Source: Nitrospirota bacterium (GTDB lineage: Bacteria > Nitrospirota > Nitrospiria > Nitrospirales > Nitrospiraceae). From it: a DNA stretch of 64,000 nucleotides. Both the position numbers and the translations under genes were made by a program. The notes beneath the pieces were generated by a model. It saw only the letters and a program-made list of their open reading frames with translations. It did not search any database and was not told the DNA's origin. Within the stretch, counting starts at the first letter, position 1, and every line of letters begins with the position of its first letter. The DNA lies in contig JBFLWP010000003.1 of assembly GCA_040757595.1 (NCBI GenBank), positions 166,873 to 230,872 of the forward strand. The letters are read 5' to 3'. Positions 32,747 to 48,896 of the stretch are shown piece after piece.

Positions 32747-33130
32747 ATGAGCGGGATGGAGCTGCTCCTTGAGTATTTAGGCCGCTACTTCCCGGTTCTG
32801 CTGTTCATCGTGATCGCGCTGGCCTTCGGCGTGGTCACGTTGGTCATCAGCTATTTGGTCCAGCCCAAGTATCCGGAACCGGAGAAGCTCAGCGCCTACG
32901 AATGCGGCAGCGAGCCCTTCTCCGATGCCCGGATGCCCTTCCCCGTCCGCTATTACATCTTCGCGATGCTGTTCGTCATCTTCGATATCGAGGTGATCTT
33001 CCTGTATCCCTGGGCGGTCGTCTTCGACAAGATCGGGCTCATCGGTCTGGTCGAGATGCTGATCTTCATCGGCCTGTTCCTGGTCGCCTACGTGTACGCG
33101 TGGCGCAAAGGCGCGCTGGAGTGGGACTGA
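32747..33130 (+). CDS. nuoA: NADH-quinone oxidoreductase subunit A
   Basis: Three membrane helices (about residues 12-37, 67-90, 97-117) and the conserved loop with the reactive Cys in YECGSEPFSDA. 127 residues; ATG at 32747 or 32756. NuoA helps form the quinone-binding site at the junction of the membrane and peripheral arms of complex I. First gene of nuoABCDGIJKLMMN. Confidence 0.96.
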   Translation: MSGMELLLEYLGRYFPVLLFIVIALAFGVVTLVISYLVQPKYPEPEKLSAYECGSEPFSDARMPFPVRYYIFAMLFVIFDIEVIFLYPWAVVFDKIGLIGLVEMLIFIGLFLVAYVYAWRKGALEWD

Positions 33131-33288
33131 ATGGGTGACGGGTGACGCGTGATGAGTGACGGACGACGCGGGGATGGGGCGACACGGGGACTCGGAGATG
33201 GAGATCGCCGCGTCGCCCCCTCGCCGTGTCTCCGCGTCGGTTCATTGGCGTGGCACTTGTCACGCATCACCGAACACGGGGCTTCGAG
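33131..33288. repeat. compound heptad-word inverted repeat, nuoA-nuoB junction
   Basis: Outer words GGGTGAC, GGGTGAC, GCGTGAT, GAGTGAC, GGACGAC on the left and TTGTCAC, GCATCAC on the right. A second, longer inverted repeat is nested inside, with GGCGACACGG opposite CCGTGTC and GGGGCGA opposite TCGCCCC. The predicted RNA is a long stem just before nuoB. Confidence 0.7.
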
Positions 33289-33804
33289 ATGGGCTTGATC
33301 CAGATCGGACGGCACGAGAAGGATGGGCAACTGGACGTGATCACCACGACGGTCGAGAAGGCCGTCAACTGGGCACGCAAGGGCTCGCTCTGGCCCATGA
33401 CGTTCGGGCTCGCCTGCTGTGCGATCGAGATGATCGCGGCCGTCTCCTCCCGCTACGACATGGACCGGTACGGGGCTGGCGTCTTCCGGGCGTCGCCGCG
33501 CCAGTCCGACCTGATGATCGTGGCCGGCACGGTCTGTCGCCGGATGGCGCCCGTGATCCGCAAGATCTACGATCAGATGCCGGAACCCAAGTACGTGATC
33601 GCCATGGGGTCCTGCGCGACCTCCGGCAACATCTACGACAGTTACAGCGTCGTCCAGGGCGTGGACCGGTTCGTGCCGGTGGACATCTACGTGCCCGGCT
33701 GCCCGCCCACGCCCGAAGCTCTGTTCGACGGCATCCTCAAGCTGCAGGAGCGGATCATGCAGAAGCGGGTCTTCACCAAGCAGCCGGACGCCGTCAAAGC
33801 GTGA
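33289..33804 (+). CDS. nuoB: NADH-quinone oxidoreductase subunit B
   Basis: It carries cluster N2, the last iron-sulfur cluster before quinone. The four ligand cysteines are seen in [17 protein letters not shown] and [10 protein letters not shown]. 171 residues from the ATG at 33289 ([14 protein letters not shown]); an in-frame GTG-type start further up lies in the repeat and is rejected. Confidence 0.96.
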
Positions 33805-33887
33805 TGGGTGATGAGCGATGGGTAACGGGTTGAAAAGCGGTCCGGAGATTTTTCCCTCTGCGTCACGCATCACCCATCACGATAGTT
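33805..33887. repeat. heptad-word inverted repeat, nuoB-nuoC junction
   Basis: Left words GTGATGG, GTGATGA, GCGATGG, GTAACGG; right words GTCACGC, ATCACCC, ATCACGA. The loop is about 25 bases. Confidence 0.75.
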
Positions 33888-33891
33888 TGAG

Positions 33892-34383
33892 ATGCATCCG
33901 ATAGCCGAGCGCATCCAGCAGAAGTTTCCCGAGTCCTTCGTTCAGGCCGTGGAGTGGCGCGGGGATTTGGCCGTGACCGTCAAACGGGAGGCCCTCCACG
34001 GCGTGGCGCGATTCCTCCACGACGACCCGGGGATGGATTTCGACTACATCGTCCACGTGAGCTCGGTGGACTGGCCGGACGACGAGGGGCGGTTCGAAGT
34101 CGTCTACGAGTTCTATTCGATCCGGAAGCGGCATCGGATCCGGCTGAAGACCCGCGTGCCCGAGGCCGATTGCACGGTGGACTCCCTGACGGACATCTGG
34201 AAGGGCGCCAACTTCATGGAGCGCGAGGTCTACGACATGATGGGCATCCGGTTCCGCAACCACCCGGACCTGCGCCGCATCCTGATGCCGGACGATTATT
34301 CCGAAGGGTACCCGCTCCGGAAAGACTTTCCGGTGCAGGGAAAGGGGTGGCGGGACACGTTCGAGTTCCTGAACGAGACATAG
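33892..34383 (+). CDS. nuoC: NADH-quinone oxidoreductase subunit C
   Basis: A peripheral-arm subunit in contact with NuoD. The family signature is EREVYDMMGIRFRNHPDLRR followed by ILMPDDYSEGYPLRKDF. 163 residues; a separate gene, not fused to nuoD as in E. coli. Confidence 0.95.
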   Translation: MHPIAERIQQKFPESFVQAVEWRGDLAVTVKREALHGVARFLHDDPGMDFDYIVHVSSVDWPDDEGRFEVVYEFYSIRKRHRIRLKTRVPEADCTVDSLTDIWKGANFMEREVYDMMGIRFRNHPDLRRILMPDDYSEGYPLRKDFPVQGKGWRDTFEFLNET

Positions 34384-34466
34384 TGTTGAATTGTGAATTT
34401 TGAGTTTTGAATTGGCTGGAGCCTGATAACTAAACACTCAAAACTACAAACTCCAAACTTTTTCTA
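34384..34466. repeat. heptad-word inverted repeat, nuoC-nuoD junction
   Basis: Left words TGTTGAA, TTGTGAA, TTTTGAG, TTTTGAA; right words TAAACAC, TCAAAAC, TACAAAC, TCCAAAC. The AT-rich vocabulary differs from the other copies, yet the arms remain complementary. Confidence 0.75.
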
Positions 34467-34469
34467 CGC

Positions 34470-35714
34470 GTGAAATTGGAAGATCAACGACAGACCGTTT
34501 ACAGGGTCGATCCCGACCATCCGGAGACTGATACGCTCCCGCTCGTCCGAACCGAGGAGCTGCTCCTCAACATGGGACCGCAGCATCCGAGCACGCACGG
34601 GGTGCTGAAGGTGATCCTGGAGTTGGAAGGGGAGCGGATCGTCAAGTCCACGCCGGTCATGGGCTTCCTCCACCGGGGAGTCGAGAAGCTGGCGGAGGAC
34701 GGGACCTACCAGCAGTTCATCCCGCACACGGACCGGCTGGACTACGTCTGCGCGATGTACAACAACTTCGCCTACTGCCGCGCGGTCGAGAAGCTGATGA
34801 ACGTCACCGTGCCGGAGCGGGCCGAGTACCTGCGCACGATCGTCGCGGAGGTGCAGCGGATCATCGGGCACCAGTTCTGGCTGGGCACGCAGGCCCTCGA
34901 CATTGGGGCCATGACGGTCTTCTTCTACACGTTCCGCGACCGGGAGATCCTCCTCGACTGGTTCGACGAGCTCTGCGGGGCGCGCCTGACGACGAGCTGG
35001 TACCGGATCGGCGGGGTGGAGCGGGACCTGACGCCTGCGCTGATCGAGAAGCTCCGGCGCTTCCTCGACTACTTCCTGCCGAAGATTGACGAGTACGTCG
35101 TGTTCCTGGAGAAGAACCGCATCTGGCTCGCCCGGACGAAGGGCGTGGCGGTGATCTCGGCGGAGGACGCGGTTAACTTCGGGCTCAGCGGCCCGACGCT
35201 CCGCGGGTCCGGCGTGGACTACGACCTGCGCAAGTACGAGGCCTACGGGGCCTATCCCCGGTGCGAGTTCAGCGTCCCGGTGGGCAAGAACGGCGACACC
35301 TACGACCGGTACTGGATCCGGGTCGAGGAGATGCGCGAGAGCGTCAAGATCATCAAGCAGTGCCTGGCCCAGATGCCGGAAGGCCCGATCATGGCCGACG
35401 TCCCCAGCGTCACCCTGCCGAAGAAGGAGCGGGTCTTCACGAACCTGGAGTCCATGATCCAGCAGTTCAAGCTCTTCTCGCAGGGGTTCGACGCGCCGAA
35501 GGGCGAGGTCTACTGCGGGACCGAGGCCCACAAGGGCGAGCTGGGCTTCTACATCGTCAGCGCGGGCGGCGGGAAGCCCTACCGGCTGAAGATCCGCGCC
35601 CCGTCGTTCATTCACATGGGCGCGTTCGATTATATGGCGCGGGGCTACATGATCGCGGACGCCGTGACGATCTTCGGGACCTACGACATCGTCATGGGGG
35701 AGTGCGACCGCTGA
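34470..35714 (+). CDS. nuoD: NADH-quinone oxidoreductase subunit D
   Basis: The 49-kDa-type subunit that lines the quinone cavity. Conserved stretches are NMGPQHPSTHGVL, MGFLHRGVEKL, RLDYVCAMYNN and the C-terminal ARGYMIADAVTIFGTYDIVMGECDR region. 414 residues. The GTG at 34470 follows the inverted repeat directly with no clear ribosome binding site, so initiation may depend on the hairpin or on coupling. Confidence 0.96.
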   Translation: MKLEDQRQTVYRVDPDHPETDTLPLVRTEELLLNMGPQHPSTHGVLKVILELEGERIVKSTPVMGFLHRGVEKLAEDGTYQQFIPHTDRLDYVCAMYNNFAYCRAVEKLMNVTVPERAEYLRTIVAEVQRIIGHQFWLGTQALDIGAMTVFFYTFRDREILLDWFDELCGARLTTSWYRIGGVERDLTPALIEKLRRFLDYFLPKIDEYVVFLEKNRIWLARTKGVAVISAEDAVNFGLSGPTLRGSGVDYDLRKYEAYGAYPRCEFSVPVGKNGDTYDRYWIRVEEMRESVKIIKQCLAQMPEGPIMADVPSVTLPKKERVFTNLESMIQQFKLFSQGFDAPKGEVYCGTEAHKGELGFYIVSAGGGKPYRLKIRAPSFIHMGAFDYMARGYMIADAVTIFGTYDIVMGECDR

Positions 35715-35793
35715 AGACGTGAAAGGTGAGAGGTGAAACGTGAGAAGCCGCGGTGGGGTTTCGTTTCACGTCTTACGTTTCACGTTTTACGGA
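35713..35793. repeat. heptad-word inverted repeat, nuoD-nuoG junction
   Basis: Left words ACGTGAA, AGGTGAG, AGGTGAA, ACGTGAG; right words TTTCACG, TCTTACG, TTTCACG, TTTTACG. nuoE, nuoF and nuoH are not found here or elsewhere in the window. Confidence 0.75.
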
Positions 35794-35801
35794 GTTGAGA
35801 C

Positions 35802-38549
35802 ATGGCTCTGAAACCGGCCACCAATCCCGAAGTCGAAGCGGCGACGATCGAGCTGACCATCGACGGTCAGACCGTCACGGCCAAGGACGGGGTCTCGCTG
35901 TACGACGTGATCGCCAGCACGGGGAAGATCATCCCCGCGATGTGCTACCACTACACCTTCGACCCCTTCGGCTCCTGCGGCATGTGCCTGGTGATGCAGG
36001 AGGGCAAGAAGGCGCCGGTCCGCTCCTGCACGGCCAAGGCCACGGCCGGCATGGTGATCCGGACGGACGGCGACGAACTCTTCCAGGCCCGCAAGAAGGC
36101 GGTCGAGAAGCACCTGTCGGTCCACCCGCTGGACTGCCCGGTCTGCGACGCGGACGGCCACTGCGAGCTCCAGGACATGGCGTTCCTGCACCGGGTGACC
36201 AGTCTGGCCAACGCCAAGCAGAAGCTGATCCCGGAGGACACGCGCAGCCTCGTGCTCGACTTCAACATGAACCGCTGCATCGCCTGCGGCGAGTGCATCA
36301 ACATCTGCAAGGACGTGCAGATGATCGACGCGCTCCAGTTCATGAAGAAGGGCGGCTTCAACCAGGTGGTGGCCAAGGGCGACGTCGCGCTCTCCTGCGA
36401 GTTCTGCGGCGACTGCCTGGCGGTCTGCCCGGTCGGGGCGATCACGAACAAGTTCTCCAAGTACCTCTACAAGCCCTGGCAGCTGAAGAAGACCACGACC
36501 ACCTGCAACTACTGCGGGGACGGCTGCCAGATGCACGTCGAGACCAAGGACACGGAAGTGGTCCGCGTCACGTCGCCCCTGTCCTGGAAGAACAAATGGG
36601 GAGACCGGGCCGAGACCGTGAAGGGCCACGGCGGGCTCTGCGTGCGGGGCCGGTTCGGCTTTCAGTTCATCGACAACAAGAGCCGGCTGGGAATGCCCCT
36701 GGTCCGGCAGGACGACCGTCTGGTCGAGGCTCCCTGGCTGGAGACGATGCACCGGCTCGTGGACCGGCTGGCCGAGATCAAGGCCCAGCACGGGCCTCGG
36801 GCCATCGCGGGCCTGATCACGGCGCGCTGCACGAACGAGGATCTGTACCTGTTCCAGAAGCTCATGCGGGTGGCGATCGGGACCAACCAGCTCGACTCGA
36901 GCGCGCGGTACGGCCACATGAACTTCGTCCACGCGGTCCGGAAGGCGCTCGGCGCGGGCCGGATGACGAACGACTCCGAGGACATCACCAAGGCCAAGGC
37001 CATCCTCGTGGTCGGGTCCAACATCACCGAGACGAACCCCCTGGCCAGCGTGCGCGTGAAGCAGGCGATCCGCACGTACGGCGCGCAGGTGATCGTCGTG
37101 GATTCGGCCATGACCAACATCGCGAAGCTGGCGTCCCACCCGATGCTCGTCAAGCCGGGCACCGAGGGACTCTTCCTCCAGGGGCTGGTCAAGGCGGTGG
37201 TCGAGCAGGACCTCATCGACGAGGAGGCGACGGGGAAGCATCCGCAGGCCTTCGCCGCGCTCAAACGGGCGGTGGCGGCGGTGTCGCTGGAAGCGGTGGC
37301 CGCCCAGACCGGGGTGCCGGCGGAGCAGATCCGCGAGTGCGCCGCCATCTTCGCGGAAGCGCCGCGCGCGGTGATCATCTGCGGCGAAGGGATCGTCCGG
37401 CGGGCGGGCGGCTACCGGCACGTCCTGACCGCGGTGGACCTGGCCTGGGTGACCGGCAAGCTGGGAAGGCCCGGTTGCGGGATCAACACGGTGGTCGAGG
37501 AGGCCAACGAGCAGGGAGCGGCGGACATGGGTGCGGCGCCGGAGTTCCTGCCGGGCCAGGCCCGGTTCGGGGACGAAGCGGCGCGGGCCAAGTTCGCGAA
37601 GGCCTGGGGAGGCGACTCGCCGGCCCAGTTGCCGCCTGCGAAAGACGGCGCCGGTTTGATGGAGATCCTCAAACGCTGCCGGAGCGGAGCGATCAAGGCC
37701 CTGTACGTGATTGGGGAGAATCCGGTCGCCACGCTGCCGGCTTCGCTGGAGGTCAAGGAGGCGCTGTCCAATCTCGATTTGCTGATCTGCCAGGATCCTT
37801 TTTTGACCGAGACCGCGCAACTGGCCCACTTCGTCCTGCCCGCCTGCACGTTCGCGGAGAAGGACGGGACCGTGACCAATCAGGAGGGCAAGGTCCAGCG
37901 CGTCCGCCAGACGATGGATCCGATCGGGGAGAGCCTCCCCGACTGGTACATCATGACGGCGCTGTCCAGCGGCCTGGGCTACCCGCTCGATTATGAATCG
38001 CCGCAGGACATCCAGAACGAGATCATGAAGCTGCTGCCCGGCTACTACAACCTCGGCCAGCCCCGGAAGCTCGCCCCGACACCAGACGCCTATCTGGCCG
38101 ACGGCTTCGCGGCCGAGGTGGCGGACCGGTATTCGGACGGGGGCGCCTCTCGCGCTTCACGTCTCACCTCTCACGATCAGTCGTTCACTCTGCTCATGGG
38201 GCAGGTGCTCTACCATTCCGGCAAGCTCTCCACACAGGCCTCCGGGTTGATCCGGATCGCACCGAACACCGGACGGCTGCGGATGAACGGGCAGGACCTG
38301 GAGCGATTGGGGCTGGGTTCCCGGAGCCCGGAGGGATCGGGAGGGGCGGGCGGACGGGTCCGCGTCATTTCGGAGCGCGGCTCGCTGGAGATGGGGGTGC
38401 AAGCGGACCCGTCGGTGCTGCCTGGGAGCTGCTTCTTCCCCGAGCATTTCAACGAGCCGCCGGTCAAGGACCTGATGCCGGTCGAGGTCGACGCCGTCAC
38501 GGGGGTTCCCTCGTTCAAGCTGGCGCGCGTCTCTATTGAAAAGGCCTGA
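35802..38549 (+). CDS. nuoG: NADH-quinone oxidoreductase subunit G
   Basis: The large iron-sulfur subunit of the peripheral arm, 915 residues. In order: a [2Fe-2S] domain (FGSCGMC and CTAKATAGM), the His/Cys cluster (HPLDCPVCDADGHCELQDM), two [4Fe-4S] motifs (CIACGECINIC; CEFCGDCLAVCPVGA), a further cluster site (CNYCGDGC ... CVRGRFG) and a molybdopterin-oxidoreductase-like body that in NuoG holds no molybdenum. Residues about 784-793 are encoded by one arm of a heptad-word repeat, an apparent insertion before the C-terminal domain. ATG at 35802 with ggagttgag upstream. Confidence 0.95.
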   Translation: MALKPATNPEVEAATIELTIDGQTVTAKDGVSLYDVIASTGKIIPAMCYHYTFDPFGSCGMCLVMQEGKKAPVRSCTAKATAGMVIRTDGDELFQARKKAVEKHLSVHPLDCPVCDADGHCELQDMAFLHRVTSLANAKQKLIPEDTRSLVLDFNMNRCIACGECINICKDVQMIDALQFMKKGGFNQVVAKGDVALSCEFCGDCLAVCPVGAITNKFSKYLYKPWQLKKTTTTCNYCGDGCQMHVETKDTEVVRVTSPLSWKNKWGDRAETVKGHGGLCVRGRFGFQFIDNKSRLGMPLVRQDDRLVEAPWLETMHRLVDRLAEIKAQHGPRAIAGLITARCTNEDLYLFQKLMRVAIGTNQLDSSARYGHMNFVHAVRKALGAGRMTNDSEDITKAKAILVVGSNITETNPLASVRVKQAIRTYGAQVIVVDSAMTNIAKLASHPMLVKPGTEGLFLQGLVKAVVEQDLIDEEATGKHPQAFAALKRAVAAVSLEAVAAQTGVPAEQIRECAAIFAEAPRAVIICGEGIVRRAGGYRHVLTAVDLAWVTGKLGRPGCGINTVVEEANEQGAADMGAAPEFLPGQARFGDEAARAKFAKAWGGDSPAQLPPAKDGAGLMEILKRCRSGAIKALYVIGENPVATLPASLEVKEALSNLDLLICQDPFLTETAQLAHFVLPACTFAEKDGTVTNQEGKVQRVRQTMDPIGESLPDWYIMTALSSGLGYPLDYESPQDIQNEIMKLLPGYYNLGQPRKLAPTPDAYLADGFAAEVADRYSDGGASRASRLTSHDQSFTLLMGQVLYHSGKLSTQASGLIRIAPNTGRLRMNGQDLERLGLGSRSPEGSGGAGGRVRVISERGSLEMGVQADPSVLPGSCFFPEHFNEPPVKDLMPVEVDAVTGVPSFKLARVSIEKA

Positions 38550-38561
38550 GGAGAGGAGTAG

Positions 38562-38583
38562 GCTGTCGCGGCTTCGCGGCAGC
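38562..38583. other. short hairpin between nuoG and nuoI
   Basis: GCTGTCGCG (38562-38570) and CGCGGCAGC (38575-38583) pair with one G-U wobble around a 4-base loop. It is not built of heptad words and has no T-run. Confidence 0.45.
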
Positions 38584-38603
38584 GAAGGGATCGGGAGAGG
38601 AGC

Positions 38604-39191
38604 ATGAGCGTCGGCGCGCTGACGAGGAAGGTTCTGCAGGCGGCCCTGTTCTATGAGATTTGGGACGCGATGAAAGTGACCTTCAAACACATGTTCCATC
38701 GGCCGATCACCTTCCAGTACCCGCGGGAGCAGCGGACGATCCCGGACACGCACCGGGGCGCGCTGGGCCTGCTGCGCTACGACGATGGGCGGGAGCGCTG
38801 CGTGGGGTGCGACCTGTGCGAGGCGGCCTGCCCCTCCCGCTGCATCAAAGTCATCAGTGCGGAGAACAGGGATCTGCCGCTCCAGCGGTACGCGAGCGAG
38901 TTTTACATCGACATCACGAAGTGCGTGTTTTGCGGGTACTGCGTGGAGGCCTGCCCGGTCAACGCGCTGGCGATGACCAAGCTCTACGAGTATTCCACCC
39001 ACGACAAACGGACCCTCCTGTTCGATAAACGGCGGCTCTACGAGATCGGGGAACGGCATTTGGCTGACGCGAAGAAGTATTTGGTGGCCCACAACCAGGA
39101 GAAGGACGACCAGTGGAGCCGCGACTACCGGTACTTCTTTCCCCAGTCGGTCCAGAAACCGACGCAGCCGCCGCCGAAACACCTGACCTGA
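38604..39191 (+). CDS. nuoI: NADH-quinone oxidoreductase subunit I
   Basis: It carries clusters N6a and N6b in two CxxCxxCxxxC sets: CVGCDLCEAACPSRC and CVFCGYCVEACPVNA. The N-terminal amphipathic segment attaches it to the membrane arm. 195 residues; the C-terminus is Gln/Pro-rich. In complete clusters nuoH normally precedes it; here nuoG does. Confidence 0.96.
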   Translation: MSVGALTRKVLQAALFYEIWDAMKVTFKHMFHRPITFQYPREQRTIPDTHRGALGLLRYDDGRERCVGCDLCEAACPSRCIKVISAENRDLPLQRYASEFYIDITKCVFCGYCVEACPVNALAMTKLYEYSTHDKRTLLFDKRRLYEIGERHLADAKKYLVAHNQEKDDQWSRDYRYFFPQSVQKPTQPPPKHLT

Positions 39192-39201
39192 TTCGACATC
39201 C

Positions 39202-39723
39202 ATGATCCTGCTGTTCTTCGTCTATTTTTCCCTGGTAAGCATTGCCGCCGGGGTGCTCACGGTTGCGCTGCGGAACCCCGTGCACTGCGGCCTGGCGCTG
39301 CTGACGCTGCTGCTGCACGTGGCCGGACTGTTCGTGCTCCTCAACGCCGAGTTCCTCTTCGCCGTCCAGATCATCGTCTACGCGGGCGCCATCCTGGTGC
39401 TCTACCTGTTCGTGCTGATGCTCCTCAACCTGAAGACGGACGAGCGGTACCTCCACACCCGCTACGCGGTGATCCTCTTTGCCGCCGTCGCGGTCTGCGG
39501 GGAGCTCCTGCTGCTGGTGCTGCGGTCTCCGTTCGGCGGCGCGCGCGGCGATGCCCCGGCGGACACGGTGCTCCAGACCGGGCCGAGCCACGCCGTCGGG
39601 ATCAAGATGTTCAGCGACTACCTGCTGCCGTTCGAGATCGTCGGGGTCTTCCTGCTGGGCGCCATCATCGGGGCGATCGTGCTGGCGAAAACCCCTTCTT
39701 CAACGGACGAACGTGAAGCGTGA
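39202..39723 (+). CDS. nuoJ: NADH-quinone oxidoreductase subunit J
   Basis: Five membrane helices. The third has the conserved AVQIIVYAGAILVLYLFVLM with its pi-bulge Tyr. 173 residues. It begins ten bases after nuoI; the C-terminal residues lead into the heptad-word repeat. Confidence 0.94.
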   Translation: MILLFFVYFSLVSIAAGVLTVALRNPVHCGLALLTLLLHVAGLFVLLNAEFLFAVQIIVYAGAILVLYLFVLMLLNLKTDERYLHTRYAVILFAAVAVCGELLLLVLRSPFGGARGDAPADTVLQTGPSHAVGIKMFSDYLLPFEIVGVFLLGAIIGAIVLAKTPSSTDEREA

Positions 39724-39800
39724 AGCGTGAAGCGTGAAGCGTGAAGCGTGAAGCGAAGAAAGATCCCTAACGCTTTACGAGCGACGAGAGACGAACGACG
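39715..39800. repeat. heptad-word repeat, nuoJ-nuoK junction
   Basis: One ACGTGAA word and then GCGTGAA five times in tandem form the left arm; the right arm (GCTTTAC, then GACGA-type words) matches poorly. This copy shows the tandem 7-base unit most clearly and looks recently expanded. Confidence 0.75.
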
Positions 39801-39806
39801 ATTGTT

Positions 39807-40109
39807 ATGGTTCCATTGAGCGCATACGTGGCCGTGAGCGCGATCCTGTTCGCGACCGGCCTGATCGGCGTGCTGATCCGCCGGAACTTCATCATCGTCT
39901 TGATGGCGGTCGAGGTCATGCTGAACGCGGCCAACATCAACCTGGTCGCCTTCTCTCACTATCTGGAGTCCATGGCGGGCCAGATCGTGGCGCTGTTCGT
40001 GATCGCGATCGCGGCCGGCGAGGCGGCGGTGGGCCTGGCGATCATCATCGTCGTGTTCCGCGGCAAACTGTCGACCAACGTGGATGAAATGAATCTCTTA
40101 AAGTGGTAA
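39807..40109 (+). CDS. nuoK: NADH-quinone oxidoreductase subunit K
   Basis: Three membrane helices with the conserved acidic residues in VLMAVEVMLNAANIN and the next helix (VIAIAAGEAAVGLAI), part of the proton path. 100 residues, standard length. It is followed one base later by nuoL. Confidence 0.95.
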   Translation: MVPLSAYVAVSAILFATGLIGVLIRRNFIIVLMAVEVMLNAANINLVAFSHYLESMAGQIVALFVIAIAAGEAAVGLAIIIVVFRGKLSTNVDEMNLLKW

Positions 40110-40110
40110 C

Positions 40111-42111
40111 GTGTTCGAGCTGCTCGTCCTTCTGATCCCGACCTTTCCGCTCCTGGCCGTGCTCCTGAACGGCCTGCTGGGGCACCGTTACTCGCACGAG
40201 GTGGCACACCGGCTGGCCTGGGGCTCGGTGGGGCTGTCGTTCCTCTGCGCGATCTGGGTCTTCGCCGACACGCTCCACACGGGCGTTCCGCGCGAAGTGG
40301 TGGCCTATCGCTGGATCTTCGGCGGCGACCTCACGGTCAACCTGGCCTTCCTGATTGATCCGCTGACCTGCGTCATGCTGCTGGTCGTGACCGGCGTCGG
40401 GTTCTTCATCCACCTCTATTCGGTCGGGTACATGCACGGGGAGGAGGGGTTCACCCGCTTCTTCACCTACATGAACCTGTTCATGGTGTCCATGCTCCTG
40501 CTGGTGATGGGGAACAACTACCTGGTCCTCTTCATCGGCTGGGAGGGCGTGGGGCTCTGCTCCTACCTGCTGATCGGCTACTACTTCGACCGGGTCTCGG
40601 CGGCCAAGGCGGCGACCAAGGCCTTCGTCGTGAACCGGATCGGGGACGCCGGCTTCCTCCTGGCGATCTTCCTCGTCTTCATGAACTTCAAGACGCTGGA
40701 CTACACCCAGGTCTTCGCCCAGGCGGGCCACCTCTCGACCGGGATGGCGACGGCGATCGCCCTCTGTCTGCTGATCGGGGCGGTCGGAAAGTCCGCCCAG
40801 GTCCCCCTGTACACCTGGCTGCCCGACGCGATGGAGGGGCCGACGCCGGTCAGCGCGTTGATCCACGCCGCCACGATGGTCACGGCCGGCGTGTACATGA
40901 TCGTGCGCAACCACGTGCTCTACGACATGGCGCCGGTGGCCATGACCACGGTGGCCTGGATCGGCGGCGGCACGGCCCTCTTCGCCGCGACGATCGGGCT
41001 CGTCCAGACGGACATCAAGCGGGTGCTGGCCTATTCCACGGTCAGCCAGCTCGGCTACATGTTCCTGGCCTGCGGGATCGGGGCTTACACGGCCGCGATC
41101 TTCCACCTGATGACCCATGCGTTCTTCAAGGCGCTGCTGTTCCTGTCGGCCGGCTCCGTCATCCACGCCCTTCACGGCGAGCAGGACATCCGCAAAATGG
41201 GCGGCTTGAAGTCCAGGATTCCCTGGACCCACGGCCTGTTCCTCGTCGGGACGCTGGCGATCGCCGGCATCTTCCCCCTGTCCGGGTTCTGGAGCAAGGA
41301 CGAGATCCTGGCCCACGCCTTCACGCACGGCTACTACGCCCTCTACGCGATGGCGGCGGTCGGGGCCTTCCTGACGGCCTTCTATATGTTCCGGCTCACG
41401 TACCTGACCTTCTACGGCCAGTCTCGCGTGGACCACCATACGGCCGAGCACATCCACGAGTCGCCTCCGGTCATGATCGGGCCGCTCGTGGTGCTCGCGG
41501 CCCTGTCGGTGATCGGCGGCTTCCCCGGCGTCCCGCCGGAGGCCGGCTGGTTCCATCACTTCCTGCACCCCGTGACGGTGTCGGCGGGAGGCGAAGGCGG
41601 GCACGAGATCGGCTTCGGGCTCCTCGCGACGCTGATGGGAGTGGCGACCGCGATCGCGCTGGCCGGGTGGGGCCTGGCCCATTACCTGTACAGCGTCCGC
41701 CCCGAGGCCGCGCCGGAGTTGGCCGCGCGCCTGCCCGGCGCCTACACGACGCTCTTGAACAAGTACTACGTGGACGAGCTCTACGACCTGCTGTTCGTGG
41801 AGCCCACCAAGCGTCTGGGACAGGTCTGGGACTGGTTCGACCGGAACGTCATCGACCGGATCGTCCTCGGGGTGGGGCAGATGACCCAGTCGGGCTCGGC
41901 GGCCAGCACCTGGATCGAGAAACACGTGATTTACGGGTTCCTGAACGTCGTGGGTTACGCCAACCACCTGGCAGCCCGCTCCTGGCGGCAGTTGCAGTCC
42001 GGACAGGTGCACCATTACGCGGCCATCATCGTGGCCGGACTCTTCATCCTGGTCCACCTGATCCTCGCCTGGTGGAGCGGCTCATCCGGCATCGGGGTGG
42101 CGTGGCGGTAA
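40111..42111 (+). CDS. nuoL: NADH-quinone oxidoreductase subunit L
   Basis: The distal antiporter-like proton pump of complex I. It has the key Glu in FIGWEGVGLCSYLL and the helix-7 Lys in GAVGKSAQVPLYTWLPDAM; the C-terminal part (from about 540) contains the long lateral helix and a last anchor helix (YAAIIVAGLFILVHLILAW). 666 residues, longer than E. coli NuoL (613); a longer lateral helix would be needed to span two NuoM subunits. GTG start one base after nuoK. Confidence 0.95.
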   Translation: MFELLVLLIPTFPLLAVLLNGLLGHRYSHEVAHRLAWGSVGLSFLCAIWVFADTLHTGVPREVVAYRWIFGGDLTVNLAFLIDPLTCVMLLVVTGVGFFIHLYSVGYMHGEEGFTRFFTYMNLFMVSMLLLVMGNNYLVLFIGWEGVGLCSYLLIGYYFDRVSAAKAATKAFVVNRIGDAGFLLAIFLVFMNFKTLDYTQVFAQAGHLSTGMATAIALCLLIGAVGKSAQVPLYTWLPDAMEGPTPVSALIHAATMVTAGVYMIVRNHVLYDMAPVAMTTVAWIGGGTALFAATIGLVQTDIKRVLAYSTVSQLGYMFLACGIGAYTAAIFHLMTHAFFKALLFLSAGSVIHALHGEQDIRKMGGLKSRIPWTHGLFLVGTLAIAGIFPLSGFWSKDEILAHAFTHGYYALYAMAAVGAFLTAFYMFRLTYLTFYGQSRVDHHTAEHIHESPPVMIGPLVVLAALSVIGGFPGVPPEAGWFHHFLHPVTVSAGGEGGHEIGFGLLATLMGVATAIALAGWGLAHYLYSVRPEAAPELAARLPGAYTTLLNKYYVDELYDLLFVEPTKRLGQVWDWFDRNVIDRIVLGVGQMTQSGSAASTWIEKHVIYGFLNVVGYANHLAARSWRQLQSGQVHHYAAIIVAGLFILVHLILAWWSGSSGIGVAWR

Positions 42112-42112
42112 G

Positions 42113-42208
42113 GAACGTGAAGCGTGAAACGTGAAGCGTTGGACGTAGGAGGGTGCGGGCGAATCCCAGGCCGGTGGTTGTCTTTAGCGCTTCACGCTTC
42201 ACGAGCGG
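42113..42208. repeat. heptad-word inverted repeat, nuoL-nuoM junction
   Basis: Left words ACGTGAA, GCGTGAA, ACGTGAA, GCGTTGG; right words GCTTCAC, GCTTCAC with TTTAGC before them. The loop is about 55 bases. Confidence 0.75.
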
Positions 42209-42224
42209 CACATGACGCGATTTT

Positions 42225-43871
42225 ATGCTTGAAGAGCTGACATTCGGGTTTCCGATCCTCTCGGCGATCCTCTTCTTCCCGCTCCTGGGGGCCATCGCCC
42301 TGTGGCTGCTGGACGAGGAGGACCTGATCAAGAACGTCGCGCTGGCCGTGTCGCTCCTGGAGCTGGCGCTGACGGTCGTCGTGCTGCTCCGCTTCGTCCC
42401 CGAGTCCCCGGCCATGCAGTTCTCCGAGCGGCTGAACTGGATTCCCCCGCTCGGAATCAGCTACCACCTGGCGCTGGACGGCATCAGCATCCTGTTCGTG
42501 CCGCTCACGGCCTTCCTCACTGTGCTGATCGTGCTGTACTCCTGGGACACGGTGCGCCACCAGATCAAGACCTACTTCATCGCGCTGCTGAGCCTGGAGA
42601 CGATGGTCATGGGGATCTTCGAGTCGCTGGACTTGATCCTCTTCTTCGTCTTCTGGGAGCTGATGCTGATCCCCAGCTACTTCCTGATCAAGCTCTGGGG
42701 CGGGGTCGAGCGGCAGTACGCGGCCCTCAAGTACGTCCTCTACACGCTCCTGGGCAGCGTGTTCATGCTGGTCGGGATCGTGCTCCTGGACCTGAACTAC
42801 CACCAGTGGGCCGTGACGCACCACATCGAGCCGGCCTACACGTTCGATTTCCTGCAATTGCTGGCCATCCCGATCCCCACGGACAAGCAGATCCTGATCT
42901 TCTGGCTCATCTTCCTCGGGCTGGCCTTCAAGGCGCCGATCTTTCCGTTCCACACCTGGCTGCCGGACGCCCTGCTGGAAGGGCCGATCGGCATGTCGGT
43001 GGTCCTGGCCGGGGTCAAACTCGGGACCTACGGTTTCCTGCGGTTCAGCCTGCCGTTGCTCCCGGACGCGGCCAGGAGCGAGGGCGTGGTCGCGGTCATG
43101 ATGGCGCTGGCGTTGGCGGCGATCGTGTACGGGGCGATCGTGGCCCTGATCCAGCCGGATTTCCGGCGGCTGCTGGCCTTCAGCAGCATCAGCCACCTGG
43201 GCTTCGTCGTGGCGGGGACCTTCGCGCTGAACTTCCAGGGGCTCCAGGGCAGCCTGCTCACGATGATCAACCTGGGCTTCAGCACGGCCGGCCTCTTCTT
43301 CCTGGCCGGGTTCCTCTACGTGAGGCGGCAGACGACGAACCTCTCGGCCTTCGGCGGCCTGGCCAAGAAGCTCCCGCTGCTGGCCACGTTCCTGCTGATC
43401 ATCGGCCTGGCCTCGATCGGGCTGCCGGGGACGAACGGGTTCGTGGGGGAGTTCCTGATCCTCCTGGGCACCTTCCAGGCTTCCTGGCTCTACGGGGCGA
43501 TCGCGGTGACCGGGGTGATTTTCGGGGCGGCCTATTTCCTCTGGTACTACGAGCGGGCCATGTTCGGGCCGCTGACCCAGACCGTGAGCCACGCGCTCAC
43601 GGACCTGAACGTCCGCGAGCTGGTGATCGCCGCCTCCCTCTCGGTCATGATTTTCTGGATCGGAGTCTATCCCTCGCCGTTCCTCAGGATGATGAACGGG
43701 TCGGTGCAGGCCCTGGTGGAGCGGCTGGAGCGGGGCGCGGCGGTGGCGCTCGCGCAACCGCCGGGCGCGAGGCACGAGGCGCGGGGCGCGGGGCATCAGA
43801 CTAATGCGAGCAACGGGTTTTCTTCGGCATTGCCTCGTGCCACGAACCTCGAACCTCGCGCCGTGAATTAA
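42225..43871 (+). CDS. nuoM: NADH-quinone oxidoreductase subunit M, first copy
   Basis: An antiporter-like proton-pumping subunit with 14 helices. It has the pump residues Glu145 (FWELMLIP), Lys236 (LAFKAPIFPFHTWLPDA) and Lys265 (AGVKLGTYG). 548 residues. The last 35 or so residues (from about 513) are encoded by a heptad-word inverted repeat rich in Arg, Ala and Pro codons and are absent from typical NuoM; the true domain ends before them. The stop is followed one base later by the second nuoM. Confidence 0.95.
   Translation: MLEELTFGFPILSAILFFPLLGAIALWLLDEEDLIKNVALAVSLLELALTVVVLLRFVPESPAMQFSERLNWIPPLGISYHLALDGISILFVPLTAFLTVLIVLYSWDTVRHQIKTYFIALLSLETMVMGIFESLDLILFFVFWELMLIPSYFLIKLWGGVERQYAALKYVLYTLLGSVFMLVGIVLLDLNYHQWAVTHHIEPAYTFDFLQLLAIPIPTDKQILIFWLIFLGLAFKAPIFPFHTWLPDALLEGPIGMSVVLAGVKLGTYGFLRFSLPLLPDAARSEGVVAVMMALALAAIVYGAIVALIQPDFRRLLAFSSISHLGFVVAGTFALNFQGLQGSLLTMINLGFSTAGLFFLAGFLYVRRQTTNLSAFGGLAKKLPLLATFLLIIGLASIGLPGTNGFVGEFLILLGTFQASWLYGAIAVTGVIFGAAYFLWYYERAMFGPLTQTVSHALTDLNVRELVIAASLSVMIFWIGVYPSPFLRMMNGSVQALVERLERGAAVALAQPPGARHEARGAGHQTNASNGFSSALPRATNLEPRAVN
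43763..43865. repeat. heptad-word inverted repeat inside the 3' end of nuoM copy 1
   Basis: Left words GGGCGCG, AGGCACG, AGGCGCG, GGGCGCG; right words GCCTCGT, GCCACGA, ACCTCGA, ACCTCGC. It is fully translated as the C-terminal tail of the first NuoM. Confidence 0.7.
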
Positions 43872-43872
43872 G

Positions 43873-45534
43873 ATGAGCGACTACACGCTGCTCTACATCC
43901 TGTTCGCGCCCTTCCTCGGGGCGATCCTGCTGCTGTTCATTCCGAACCGGCAGGCCCTCCAGGTCCGCCTCGTCGCGGCCGTCTCCTCCGGGATTTCCCT
44001 GTTGGCCTCCTTCTACCTCTTCTACGCCTACGACCCGGCCAAGGGCGGCTTTCAGTTCATCCAACGGTACGAATGGTCCCGGGAGCTGGGGATCGCCTTC
44101 TACCTGGGCGTGGACGGCATCGGGACCCCGCTGGTCCTGGCCTCCTCGATCCTGCTCTTCGCCGGCGTCTTCATCTCCTGGCACATCAAGGACCGGACCA
44201 AGGAGTTCTACATCTTCCTGCTGATCCTGGCGGCCGCCACGATCGGCGTGTTCATGTCGCTGGACCTCTTCTTCCTCTATTTCTTCTACGAGATGTCCGT
44301 GATCCCGATGTACCTCCTGTTGGGCGTCTGGGGCAGCCACACCAAGGGGTACCTGGACATGACCGACCCGGAGGGCCTCAAGAAGCGGGATTCGGTCGGG
44401 TTCATCTTCAACTTCGGGGCCAACAGCAAGGAATATGCGGCGATGAAGCTGACCCTGTTCCTTTCGGCCGGGGCGGTCGTCGCGCTGATGGGCATCCTGC
44501 TGATCTACAAGTACTCGGGCCTCAACACCTTCGACATCCTGGTGCTGCGGGAGAAGGCCCGCTTCTCCGGTCTCCTGGCCGACGTCATCTGGCTCCTGGT
44601 CTTCTTCGGGTTCGCCTCGATCGCCCCGATCTGGCCGCTGCACTCCTGGTCGCCGGTCGGGCACGCCGCGGCCCCGGCCGCCACGAGCATGCTGCACGCC
44701 GGCGTGCTGATGAAGCTCGGGCACTTTTCGATCATCCGGGTGGGCTACGAGATCCTGCCCGAGACCACCCGCGAGCTGATGCCGATCGCCGCGGTCCTCT
44801 GCATCTTCAGCATCATCTACGGCGGGTTCGTCGCCTATTACGCGCGGGACACCAAGTACGTGATCGGGTACTCCAGCTCCAGCCACATGGGGTACGTGTT
44901 CCTCGGCATGGCGGCGCTGGACTACATCAGCCTGAGCGGGGCCGTGCTCTACATGTTCGCCCACGCGCTCGCGACGGGCATGCTCTTCGCCATGGCCGGC
45001 TGGGTCTACGACCAGACGCACACGCGCGACATTCCCTCGCTCGGCGGGCTCGTGAACCGCATGCCGTTCGTGGCCGGCTGCTTCCTCGTCGCCTGCATGG
45101 CTTCGATCGGGATGCCGGGCACGGTCAACTTCATCGCGGAGATCATGATCCTGGTCGGGAGCTGGAACAAGTACCCGTTCCAGGTGATCGTGGCCGTGGT
45201 CGGGATCGTGCTGACGATGGCCTACCTGTTCCGGATGATGCGCGGGGTGTTCTACGGGGCGATGGACGCCCATTACAGCCACGCGCACGACGCGGTCGCG
45301 ACGGTGGACCGGCTCCCGCTGCTGCTCATGATCGCGTGCAGCATCTCGTTCGGCATCTTCCCCGGCCACTTCTACAACGTGATCCGGTCCGGGGTGGACC
45401 CGCTGATCTCCCGCATCACGCAGGTGGTGCCGCTGACCGCGCAGAGCGGTGACGCGTTAACGAACCACGCGGATGAATTGGCCGCTTCCCCCCGTCACTC
45501 GTCACTCGTCACCCGTCACGAGGGGAACGAATGA
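43873..45534 (+). CDS. nuoM: NADH-quinone oxidoreductase subunit M, second copy
   Basis: A second, divergent NuoM of 553 residues. Glu140 (FFYEMSVIP) and Lys281 (HAGVLMKLGHF) are kept, but the conserved helix-7 Lys is replaced: the segment reads GFASIAPIWPLHSWSPVGH, with Ile250 at that place and an altered WLPDA motif. A loop of about 25 residues (155-185) is inserted after the fifth helix. The last 15 residues come from a heptad-word repeat arm. Two NuoM subunits imply an extra antiporter module in complex I, a type known from Nitrospira. Confidence 0.94.
   Translation: MSDYTLLYILFAPFLGAILLLFIPNRQALQVRLVAAVSSGISLLASFYLFYAYDPAKGGFQFIQRYEWSRELGIAFYLGVDGIGTPLVLASSILLFAGVFISWHIKDRTKEFYIFLLILAAATIGVFMSLDLFFLYFFYEMSVIPMYLLLGVWGSHTKGYLDMTDPEGLKKRDSVGFIFNFGANSKEYAAMKLTLFLSAGAVVALMGILLIYKYSGLNTFDILVLREKARFSGLLADVIWLLVFFGFASIAPIWPLHSWSPVGHAAAPAATSMLHAGVLMKLGHFSIIRVGYEILPETTRELMPIAAVLCIFSIIYGGFVAYYARDTKYVIGYSSSSHMGYVFLGMAALDYISLSGAVLYMFAHALATGMLFAMAGWVYDQTHTRDIPSLGGLVNRMPFVAGCFLVACMASIGMPGTVNFIAEIMILVGSWNKYPFQVIVAVVGIVLTMAYLFRMMRGVFYGAMDAHYSHAHDAVATVDRLPLLLMIACSISFGIFPGHFYNVIRSGVDPLISRITQVVPLTAQSGDALTNHADELAASPRHSSLVTRHEGNE
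45487..45522. repeat. heptad-word repeat, nuoM2-nuoN junction (mainly one arm)
   Basis: CGTCACT, CGTCACT, CGTCACC, CGTCACG in tandem, translated as the end of NuoM copy 2. A weak left partner (GGTGACGCG) lies near 45449. Confidence 0.6.
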
Positions 45535-47030
45535 CGTTCAACCTGTCGCTATCGGGCTCGGACCTGCTCCTGATGCTGCCGGAGATCGTCCTCACGCTCT
45601 GGCTGTGCGTGGTCCTGATCGTGGACTTCGCCATGCCCCGGCTGCCCAAGGACCGGATCGCCTACCTGAGCCTGGCCGGATTGGGGCTCGTGCTGCTCAA
45701 CCTCGCCTGGTTCGACCGGGCCGGCGTGACCGGCACCCTCTTCGCCAACATGTTCGTCGTGGACCGGCTGGCGATCTTCTTCAAGGTCTTCGTCGTCGGC
45801 GCCACGGCCCTGGTCATCCTGGCCTCGATGGACTACGTCCGGCGCTTCCGGTTCTTCAAGGGCGAGTATTACTTCCTCGTCCTGATGTCGGCGCTGGGCA
45901 TGATGTTCATGGCTTCGGCCAACGACCTGCTGTCGGTCTTCATCACGCTGGAGTTCTCCACCTTCGGCTTCTACGTCCTGGTCGCCTACCTGCGCGACGA
46001 CGTGGCCTCCAACGAGGCGGGGCTCAAGTTCTTCATCCTCGGCGTCTTTGCGGCGGGCCTGCTGGCCTACGGGATCAGCCTGGTGTTCGGCGAGACGGGC
46101 AAGCTGGTGTTCTCCGACATCGCCTCGGCCGGGGCGACGCCGGGGCTCGTGATCGGGTTCCTGCTGATCTTCGCCGCCCTCGGCTTCAAAATCGGGGCGG
46201 TGCCGTTCCACTCCTGGATTCCGGACACCTACCACGGGGCGCCCACGCCCGTGACCGCGTTCCTCTCGATCGCGCCCAAGGGGGCGGCCTTCGCGATCCT
46301 GCTCCGGATGTTCTTCGTGTCGCTGGCCACGTTCAAACCCGCCTGGGTGATGATGCTGGTGGGGGTCTCGATCCTCTCGATGACCTACGGGAACATCGTG
46401 GCGATCGCGCAGAAGAACATCAAGCGCCTGCTGGCTTACTCCGGAATCGCGCAGATCGGAAACGTGCTGATCGGGCTGGCGGCTGGCACCAAGATGGGGG
46501 GCGACGCGATCCTGTTCTACCTGCTGACCTATCTGTTCGCCAACCTGGGCGCCTTCGCGATCGTGATCGCGGTGGGCAACCTGATCCAGAGCGACGAGAT
46601 CGAGGATTACAACGGCCTCAACCGCCGCTCCCCGTTCCTGGCTTTCGCCATGCTGGTCTTCCTCCTGTCCCTGGCCGGGGTCCCGCCGCTGGCCGGCTTC
46701 ATCGGCAAGCTTTACATCTTCGTCGCCGCGATCAAAGAGGGCCTCTACACGCTGATCGTGGTCGGGCTCGTCAACATCGTGATCTCGATGTACTACTACC
46801 TGGTCGTGGTCAAGAAGATGTACATCAACGAGCCGGCCGATTCCACGCCGCTCGCCATCTCGGGCCCGATGAAGGCGGTCGTCTACGTCGGCCTGGCCGG
46901 CACGCTGATCCTGGGCATCTACCCGCAGCCCTTCATCGACTGGGTCGTCGCCGCGACCCTCATGTTCTCCAACATGGCCGGGGCGTCCGCCTCGATCGCG
47001 CCTCCGCCCGTCCTCCCCTTCGGCGGCTAA
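45531..47030 (+). CDS. nuoN: NADH-quinone oxidoreductase subunit N
   Basis: The antiporter-like subunit nearest the peripheral arm, 14 helices, 499 residues. Family features are LEFSTFGFYVLVAYLRDD, FKIGAVPFHSWIPDTYHGAPTPVTAF and the later AQKNIKRLLAYSGIAQIG. The ATG overlaps the stop of nuoM copy 2 (ATGA). Last gene of the operon; no clear terminator is seen before the next promoter. Confidence 0.95.
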   Translation: MTFNLSLSGSDLLLMLPEIVLTLWLCVVLIVDFAMPRLPKDRIAYLSLAGLGLVLLNLAWFDRAGVTGTLFANMFVVDRLAIFFKVFVVGATALVILASMDYVRRFRFFKGEYYFLVLMSALGMMFMASANDLLSVFITLEFSTFGFYVLVAYLRDDVASNEAGLKFFILGVFAAGLLAYGISLVFGETGKLVFSDIASAGATPGLVIGFLLIFAALGFKIGAVPFHSWIPDTYHGAPTPVTAFLSIAPKGAAFAILLRMFFVSLATFKPAWVMMLVGVSILSMTYGNIVAIAQKNIKRLLAYSGIAQIGNVLIGLAAGTKMGGDAILFYLLTYLFANLGAFAIVIAVGNLIQSDEIEDYNGLNRRSPFLAFAMLVFLLSLAGVPPLAGFIGKLYIFVAAIKEGLYTLIVVGLVNIVISMYYYLVVVKKMYINEPADSTPLAISGPMKAVVYVGLAGTLILGIYPQPFIDWVVAATLMFSNMAGASASIAPPPVLPFGG

Positions 47031-47087: not shown

Positions 47088-47120
47088 TTGCCCGTTGATG
47101 AAATCAGAGGGGAGGTCAGG

Positions 47121-48896
47121 ATGCGCTTCACTCCGAGCAGGTCGAACGTCGGTCCCGGACTCATCATCGGGTGCATGATCCTGGCTCTCGGCGTGCAAGC
47201 CGGCTGCGGCACACTGGCCGTGACGGAGGAGCCGACCCCGAGCCTTCCGCAGAAACCCATCCCGGCCAGGCTGGGCGTGCACGTGACCGGCGAGGCGCTC
47301 AAGCGGGCCTTCGCCGATCCGGATCGGCGCAAGCTGGGGCTGGCCCCGGGACAATACTTCACCGACGTCATCCTGCTTCCTCCGGAAACCCGGTACATCG
47401 CCCCGCAAGACATTCTCGATCAGTTCGGCGCGGATCTGATCCTCCAGCTCCAAATCACCGATACGAAGAGCAGCGGGGATATGAACGCGATCTTTTTCGC
47501 GGCGATGCCCTTGACCTTCTTCGAGCCGCTCGCGCCGATCATGAGCTATGAAGTCACCGTGACCATGGAGGCCAACCTGCGGGATGCCCGAACCGGCCGC
47601 CTGCTCTGGGCCAAGACCGAGCCGACCTTGGCCACCGACCACTTCAGTCCCATCGGTCCGGAAGAGAAGATGGCCGGCTTAGCTCAGCGCGGGCTCCACA
47701 ATGCCGTCGTCAGGGTCTTCGAGACCTTGAAGCAGGAGCTGGCGGCCTATCAGCCTGGCGCTGTCCCCAAGCTGGCGGGCAGGATCGGGAGCAGCGCGGC
47801 CCTCAGCCAGGTACAAAAGGAGCTCAAGGAGCTCGAGGAGCAGGAGCGGCAGCTCGATGAGCAGAAGAAAGAGGAGCAGAAGAGGCTGGCCGCGGTTCGG
47901 CAGCAGATTGAAGAGAAGAAGAAGCGGATCGAGGAGGAGAAAAGGAGCAGGGTGGGGGGCGGCGCCGCGCTCAGCCAGGCGGAAAAGGAGCTCAAGGCGC
48001 TGGAGGAGCAAGAGCGGCAGGTAGAGGAACAGAAGAAAGAGCAGGTGAAGTTGGCGGCGATTCAGCAGCAGATCGAAGAAAAGAAGAGGCGGATTCTCGA
48101 AGAAGAGAAGAAGAAGCGGGAAAGGGTGAAGGCGAATCGCTATGCGATCGTGATGGGCATCGAGCAGTATCGGGAGCGAATTCCCAAGGCGGACTTTGCG
48201 GTGCAGGATGCCAAGGACGTGGCCCAGTTCCTGACCGCACAGGCCGGCTACCGGGAGGAGAACGTCATCCTGCGCCTGAACGAGCAGGCGACGAAGTCCG
48301 ACATGGAGAAGTACTTCGAGGCCTGGCTCAAGAACAACGTGGACGCGAACGCCAGCCTGCTCATTTACTTTTCCGGCCACGGCGCCCCCCAGGCCGCGAC
48401 CGGCGACGCCTACCTCGTGCCCTACGACGGAGACCCGGCCTTCATTGAGCAGACCGGCTATCCGCTCAAGCGGCTCTACCTGATGCTGGACAAGCTGCCG
48501 ACCAAGAACGTCGTCGTGATGCTGGATTCCTGTTTCTCCGGGGCCGGCGGCCGGTCCGTGCTGGCCAAGGGGGCCAGGCCGATGGTCCTGACGGTCGAGG
48601 GGCTGGCGAGCAGCGCGAAGGCCGTGGTCCTGGCCGCGACCTCCGGGAGCCACCTCAGCCTGGCGGATCAGGAGAAGGGCCACGGCCTGTTCACCTATTA
48701 CGCGCTCCAGGGGCTTGCCGGCGACGCCGACGCGAACGGCGACGGGGCCATCGACGTGCAGGAGCTCTTCGAGTACCTCAAGCCGCAGGTGCAGCGGGTC
48801 GCCCGCCGGACCTACAACACCGAACAGGTGCCGCAATTGATCGTCCCGCCCGCACTGGCCACCCAGGCCCCGCCCAGGCTGGTCGAGCTGCGATAG
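47121..48896 (+). CDS. caspase-like (peptidase C14) lipoprotein with coiled coil
   Basis: 591 residues. A lipobox (VQAGC, Cys29) anchors it in the membrane. A 170-residue N-terminal domain of unknown kind follows, then two near-identical coiled-coil blocks of about 50 residues (KELKELEEQERQ / KELKALEEQERQ, DNA at 47794-47942 and 47966-48115). The C-terminal p20-type domain has the His/Cys dyad His420 (YFSGHGA) and Cys471 (LDSCFSGAGG). Near the end DADANGDGAID looks like an EF-hand loop. The ATG at 47121 follows gaggggaggtcagg. No gasdermin or other known effector gene is adjacent. Role unknown. Confidence 0.88.
   Translation: MRFTPSRSNVGPGLIIGCMILALGVQAGCGTLAVTEEPTPSLPQKPIPARLGVHVTGEALKRAFADPDRRKLGLAPGQYFTDVILLPPETRYIAPQDILDQFGADLILQLQITDTKSSGDMNAIFFAAMPLTFFEPLAPIMSYEVTVTMEANLRDARTGRLLWAKTEPTLATDHFSPIGPEEKMAGLAQRGLHNAVVRVFETLKQELAAYQPGAVPKLAGRIGSSAALSQVQKELKELEEQERQLDEQKKEEQKRLAAVRQQIEEKKKRIEEEKRSRVGGGAALSQAEKELKALEEQERQVEEQKKEQVKLAAIQQQIEEKKRRILEEEKKKRERVKANRYAIVMGIEQYRERIPKADFAVQDAKDVAQFLTAQAGYREENVILRLNEQATKSDMEKYFEAWLKNNVDANASLLIYFSGHGAPQAATGDAYLVPYDGDPAFIEQTGYPLKRLYLMLDKLPTKNVVVMLDSCFSGAGGRSVLAKGARPMVLTVEGLASSAKAVVLAATSGSHLSLADQEKGHGLFTYYALQGLAGDADANGDGAIDVQELFEYLKPQVQRVARRTYNTEQVPQLIVPPALATQAPPRLVELR

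Follow-up and report, generated by a model that had tools for sequence, protein, structure and literature searches.

A lysine-less NuoM with a TM8 histidine in the double-NuoM complex I of a Nitrospirota bacterium

To our knowledge, every antiporter-like subunit has been described as having a conserved TM7 lysine that pairs with the TM5 glutamate. In NuoM of E. coli and Paracoccus, where the two residues form this pair, replacing the lysine inactivates the enzyme (PMC3046159, PMC9802314). The central proton carrier of NuoM is not this residue but the TM8 lysine (PMC9271201, PMC11496545). NuoL and MrpA possess in addition a conserved TM8 histidine (E. coli NuoL His254), which adjoins TM5 Glu144 (PMC4938563), is located on a TM8 pi-bulge, and acts as a ‘histidine switch’ that turns either towards the Lys-Glu pair or towards the exit side (PMC10396290, PMC10212512, PMC13358369). 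Complexes I with two NuoM subunits are themselves already known. In the accessible portions of the literature on the clade 3 ‘2M’ complex of Nitrospirota, the operon has the order L-M1-M2-N, an extended NuoL lateral helix and no nuoE/F/H, and the second NuoM (M2) is treated as an extra pumping subunit (PMC6606698, PMC9040806, PMC12342949); for the Nitrospira complex, reverse electron transfer to ferredoxin is proposed (PMC6606698, PMC12342949). Independent 2M complexes exist in other phyla, for example in Anaerolinea (PMC7117926). Those same portions of the clade 3 papers (PMC6606698, PMC9040806, PMC12342949) make no mention of a missing TM7 lysine, of a TM8 histidine or of a reciprocal loss of uptake histidines, and our literature search returned no 2M complex structure.

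The 2M operon and its second NuoM

The window analysed here is a 64,000-nucleotide stretch of a near-complete Nitrospirota assembly, and carries an operon in the order nuoA-B-C-D-G-I-J-K-L-M1-M2-N, in which nuoL and nuoN flank a tandem pair of nuoM genes:

32747..40109, + strand: nuoA, B, C, D, G, I, J and K (ORF list, profile matches)
40111..42111, + strand: nuoL, with all checked canonical residues and an elongated C-terminal lateral helix (profile match, alignment)
41830..41910, + strand: insertion of 27 residues, with approximate boundaries, by which the NuoL lateral helix exceeds that of E. coli (alignment; a 2M trait in PMC9040806)
42225..43871, + strand: nuoM copy 1, M1 (profile match, alignment)
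42930..42932, + strand: M1 Lys236, codon AAG, equivalent to E. coli Lys234 (codon check)
43873..45534, + strand: nuoM copy 2, M2, 553 residues, a Lys-less His-type NuoM (TIGR01972, PF00361, fold match 8qby_M)
45531..47030, + strand: nuoN, with TM12 Lys393 kept and Gln308 where E. coli has His305 (profile match, alignment)

No nuoE, nuoF or nuoH was found among the ORFs of the operon (32747-47030). The genome has a single nuoH match, next to the canonical nuo operon on a different contig, and the 2M complex must therefore share NuoH or lack it. Judged by gene order, gene content, the NuoL insertion and host, the operon is the known clade 3 2M complex I of Nitrospira.

M2 scores 422.8 bits against TIGR01972 (NADH-quinone oxidoreductase subunit M), exceeding the curated cut-off of 263.8, also matches PF00361, and has a predicted fold that matches Paracoccus NuoM (8qby_M) with a TMq of 0.83. 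The AlphaFold model shows a NuoM fold in which TM7 is interrupted (helices 233-248 and 260-266, separated by a break at 249-259), the model being only moderate at residues ~250-260 (block mean pLDDT ~55-66). The positions that matter for what follows are:

44290..44292, + strand: Glu140, TM5 ion-pair glutamate (E. coli Glu144), kept (alignment)
44335..44427, + strand: insertion of ~30 residues between TM5 and TM6, residues 155-185 (alignment, model)
44620..44622, + strand: Ile250 (ATC), where E. coli NuoM has Lys234, the TM7 ion-pair lysine (alignment, codon check)
44650..44652, + strand: Ser260 in place of the TM7b gating leucine (E. coli Leu244, Paracoccus Leu242) (alignment)
44662..44664, + strand: His264, TM7b uptake histidine (E. 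coli His248), kept; M1 has Leu250 (alignment)
44695..44697, + strand: His275 in TM8, aligned with NuoL His254, the histidine switch (alignment)
44713..44715, + strand: Lys281, TM8 central lysine (E. coli Lys265), kept (alignment)
44884..44886, + strand: His338 (E. coli His322), kept (alignment)
44962..44964, + strand: His364 (E. coli His348), kept; M1 has Leu350 (alignment)
45139..45141, + strand: Glu423, TM12 terminal glutamate (E. coli Glu407), kept (alignment)

A preliminary description of this DNA had placed Ile250 of M2 at the helix-7 lysine position, with Glu140 and Lys281 kept and Lys236 intact in the motif of M1, and all of these readings hold. An alignment with E. coli K-12 NuoM, NuoL and NuoN sets Ile250 on NuoM Lys234 and gives the other E. 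coli NuoM equivalents listed above, and a phmmer comparison with Paracoccus NuoM (8qby_M), which serves as an independent check of the register, puts the isoleucine over the same lysine. We looked for another M2 lysine that might slide onto the Lys234 column, and both comparisons rule this out. Similar to the NuoM/ND4/Nqo13 subunits of E. coli, Paracoccus and Thermus, M2 has the fold, the TM5 glutamate, the TM8 lysine, His322 and the TM12 glutamate, the last a NuoM trait where NuoL and NuoN have lysine, and it shares His348 with the E. coli and Paracoccus proteins. It differs from E. coli NuoM in the change of the TM7 lysine to isoleucine, of the gating leucine to serine, of the TM7b aspartate to valine (Val262), of Trp143 to tyrosine (Tyr139, directly before Glu140, where M1 and the canonical NuoMs of the phylum have tryptophan), and of the TM8 leucine to histidine, and in the TM5-TM6 insertion. 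This insertion is conserved in M2 and is found neither in M1 nor in E. coli NuoM nor in Lys-less NuoMs of single-M operons; part of it falls in a low-confidence region of the predicted model, and it may touch the lengthened NuoL helix. The TM5 Glu-TM7 Lys ion pair is thus incomplete, Glu140 being present and its lysine partner replaced by Ile250. M2 is a NuoM by descent and fold, yet like the whole Lys-less clade it does not have the textbook ion pair. A NuoL-like TM6 Arg/Asp pair was considered as a replacement for the lysine and rejected, as the columns of NuoL Arg175 and Asp178 hold the uncharged Ser198 and Ala201 in M2.

Conservation and descent of the lysine-less NuoM

At the Lys234 column we observe isoleucine in 123/124 M2-type sequences and leucine in the remaining one, while lysine is found in 140/140 M1 sequences having a residue there and in every M1, canonical NuoM, NuoL and NuoN scored; these raw counts are not independent, as loci from different searches partly repeat genomes. 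In a de-replicated set of 114 NuoMs the column holds isoleucine in 29/29 M2, leucine in the 1/1 single-M type, lysine in 83/83 M1 and canonical sequences, and lysine in E. coli. M2-type matches occur throughout the class Nitrospiria. A scan of genome contigs returned only close Nitrospirota-type sequences, the further genome searches covered this phylum, and a scan of viral contigs gave no relative. Estimates of dN/dS were ~0.09-0.17 for M2 and ~0.16-0.24 for M1, and M2 is under purifying selection that is stronger than that on M1. This low dN/dS, together with the conservation across homologues, rules out a sequencing error, chance or a pseudogene as the source of Ile250.

Lys-less NuoMs are not restricted to complexes with two NuoM subunits. 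One genome of the class Nitrospiria (99% complete; G162:C16) carries a second operon running from nuoA to nuoN, complete and in order and including nuoE, F and H, whose single NuoM is 42% identical to M2 and has leucine at the Lys234 column; the NuoL of this operon has no net lateral-helix insertion. The same genome also carries a 2M-type operon with two L-like subunits. This single NuoM shares one signature with the NuoMs of three Bacteroidales (Prevotella nigrescens, Bacteroides finegoldii and Phocaeicola massiliensis): tyrosine for Trp143, leucine for Lys234, serine for Leu244 and histidine for Leu259, with Glu144, Lys265, His322, His348 and Glu407 retained. Two of the Bacteroidales records are annotated; in both, the operon encodes no NuoM besides the Lys-less protein, and no nuoE/F appears in its annotated stretches. 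The Bacteroidales proteins are thus similar to M2 in belonging to one clade with the Lys-less His-type signature, and unlike it in serving as sole NuoM of a three-module complex, in having leucine rather than isoleucine at the lysine column, in keeping the TM7b aspartate and in having no TM5-TM6 insertion.

In a tree containing the Bacteroidales, single-M and M2 sequences, the Lys-less NuoMs all group in a single clade (support 100/98), which adjoins a Paenibacillus NuoM having both Lys234 and the TM8 histidine; the root of this tree is a midpoint root and the Paenibacillus branch is long. A single loss of the lysine, inside a lineage that already had the TM8 histidine, would suffice on this tree, and the loss would then predate the diversification of the Nitrospira 2M complex. 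The distribution of the trait indicates that the loss is old and fixed rather than recent. That M2 is a recent duplicate of M1 is ruled out by their 29% identity and separate clades; the quick M1/M2 tree carries a long-branch warning, and a second tree also separates the two.

The TM8 histidine and the division of uptake histidines

The preliminary description had suggested looking for a nearby histidine that takes over the lysine position, and a strong candidate is the TM8 residue His275, which lies on the histidine-switch column of NuoL and MrpA. This column (259) is histidine in all M2-type and NuoL sequences, and leucine in nearly all Lys-type NuoM and NuoN of the set. M2 and NuoL are alike in having histidine at this one TM8 column; NuoL, however, combines it with a TM7 lysine, no TM8 lysine and a TM12 lysine, whereas M2 has a TM8 lysine, no TM7 lysine and a TM12 glutamate, and of the Lys-Glu pair, towards which the switch turns on one side, half is missing in M2. 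Since the TM8 histidine occurs together with a TM7 lysine in NuoL, the histidine need not replace the lysine. That Lys234 is needed for pumping in E. coli, as the preliminary description had also stated, is correct as to the need, but the residue acts as an ion-pair lysine and not as the central proton-carrying one (PMC3046159, PMC9802314). The latter is retained in M2 as Lys281, and all Lys-less NuoMs carry the TM8 histidine and retain the TM5 glutamate, TM8 lysine and TM12 glutamate.

We consider it probable that M2 is a working proton-transfer subunit from an old His-type NuoM lineage, in which a Glu-His gate replaces the Glu-Lys gate. Cytoplasmic protons would be taken up via His264, and from the aligned axis residues we infer a path from TM5 Glu140 through TM8 His275 and TM8 Lys281 to His338/His364 and TM12 Glu423, with Glu140 and His275 taking the gate role of the canonical ion pair. 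The closest experiment is counter-evidence: in Paracoccus, NuoM K232Q stops catalysis (PMC9802314), although this NuoM has no TM8 histidine. The gene order L-M1-M2-N suggests, if colinear, a membrane order N-M2-M1-L, in which M2 Glu140 would face NuoN TM12 Lys393 as a possible counter-charge; in the order N-M1-M2-L it would instead face M1 Glu409, with no lysine. The NuoN His305 column is glutamine in 129/130 NuoN scored as adjacent to M2, as well as in the single-M operon of class Nitrospiria and two aligned Bacteroidales, while most NuoN of canonical-NuoM complexes keep His305, with a few exceptions. This co-variation fits a direct M2-NuoN contact, and may alternatively reflect the shared ancestry of complexes inherited as a whole.

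M1 retains the Glu145/Lys236 ion pair, has Leu250 for His248 and Leu350 for His348, and lacks two TM8 residues beside the central lysine, changes that render its sequence NuoN-like; this deletion and Leu350 are common to 36/41 de-replicated 2M M1s. Scoring His248 and His348 in 128 M1/M2 pairs, we found them lost in M1 and kept in M2 in 119, kept in M1 and lost in M2 in 8, kept in both in 1 and in neither in 0, the 128 operon copies including repeated genomes and so not being independent. The reversed arrangement belongs to a Manganitrophaceae-like group, whose M1 has both histidines and whose M2 has tyrosine and aspartate, and the reciprocal loss probably represents two evolutionary events. 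In Paracoccus, H246F (the His248 equivalent) abolishes catalysis while H346Q has little effect (PMC9802314), so the His248 half of the pair matters most. What is new here is that the two NuoMs of a 2M complex appear to divide the uptake histidines between them, such that M2 would be the proton-uptake NuoM, while M1 retains the ion pair but is NuoN-like.

Rival readings of the second NuoM

The reciprocal loss looks like subfunctionalisation, and appears to weaken, without refuting, an independent fourth uptake site. Carried further, M1 and M2 would be subfunctionalised halves, one with the uptake histidines and the other with the Glu-Lys pair, that together amount to one canonical NuoM plus a conduit, and the Lys-less His-gated NuoM would be a second natural complex I gate; we offer this only tentatively, as a possible but doubtful reading. 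If it holds, the extra module lengthens the charge chain, adds no independent uptake route, and a fifth proton is not required. The preliminary description's point that M2 bears on proton stoichiometry is pertinent, and the reciprocal histidine loss gives it an additional reason in that it seems to question a simple ‘fifth proton’. The opposite case, in which M2 is a full independent fourth pump in a complex moving five protons, the TM7 lysine is dispensable and the M1/M2 histidine differences are neutral, strikes us as unlikely. It can draw on the retention of Lys281, His338, His364 and Glu423 in M2, on the 27-residue NuoL lateral-helix insertion, thought to span four modules, and on the extra translocation proposed in PMC6606698 and PMC9040806 with reference to Chadwick et al. 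2018. On the other side, M2 has no ion-pair lysine, M1 has no equivalent of the uptake histidine Paracoccus His246, whose H246F substitution is dead (PMC9802314), and 0/128 of the 2M operon copies have both NuoMs fully canonical.

The preliminary description had also raised the possibility that M2 is a modified or passive module. Modified it is; that it is a passive spacer or regulatory subunit moving no protons we regard as highly improbable, even though the TM7 lysine, the gating leucine (Ser260) and the TM7b aspartate (Val262) were lost together, since the remaining axis residues are almost invariant, selection is stronger on M2 (dN/dS ~0.09-0.17) than on M1, and the Lys-less clade includes the sole NuoM of Bacteroidales operons and of the complete 14-gene operon in class Nitrospiria. 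There is similarly very little to commend an adaptation of Lys-less modules to another ion or energetic regime (a low-potential acceptor or menaquinone, reverse electron transport, or Na+) with the TM8 histidine conferring selectivity. In its favour, the residues that set ion specificity in NuoL/MrpA have been proposed to lie on TM8 (PMC4938563), reverse operation towards ferredoxin is proposed for the Nitrospira 2M complex (PMC6606698, PMC12342949), and nuoE/F are found neither in the window operon nor in the annotated stretches of the Bacteroidales operons; however, the single-M Lys-less operon has nuoE, F and H, so that absence of the lysine does not go hand in hand with absence of the NADH module.

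The sequence comparisons suggest that M2 most likely represents a His-gated NuoM, a second type of this subunit that here shares the complex with another specialised NuoM; the proton path, subunit order and stoichiometry outlined above are putative. We know of no measurement on any Lys-less complex I. A natural Lys-less clade that includes the only NuoM of gut Bacteroidales offers a direct test of the Glu-Lys pair as an obligatory gate and of what can stand in for it, and the reciprocal histidine loss bears both on whether each module moves one proton or a single axis leads to one exit, and on the extra proton claimed for Nitrospira complex I.

Two further weak NuoM/NuoL-like ORFs lie outside the nuo operons of the host genome (G000:C5:147206-150114), and a caspase-domain (Peptidase_C14) protein is encoded immediately downstream of nuoN, at 47088-48896.
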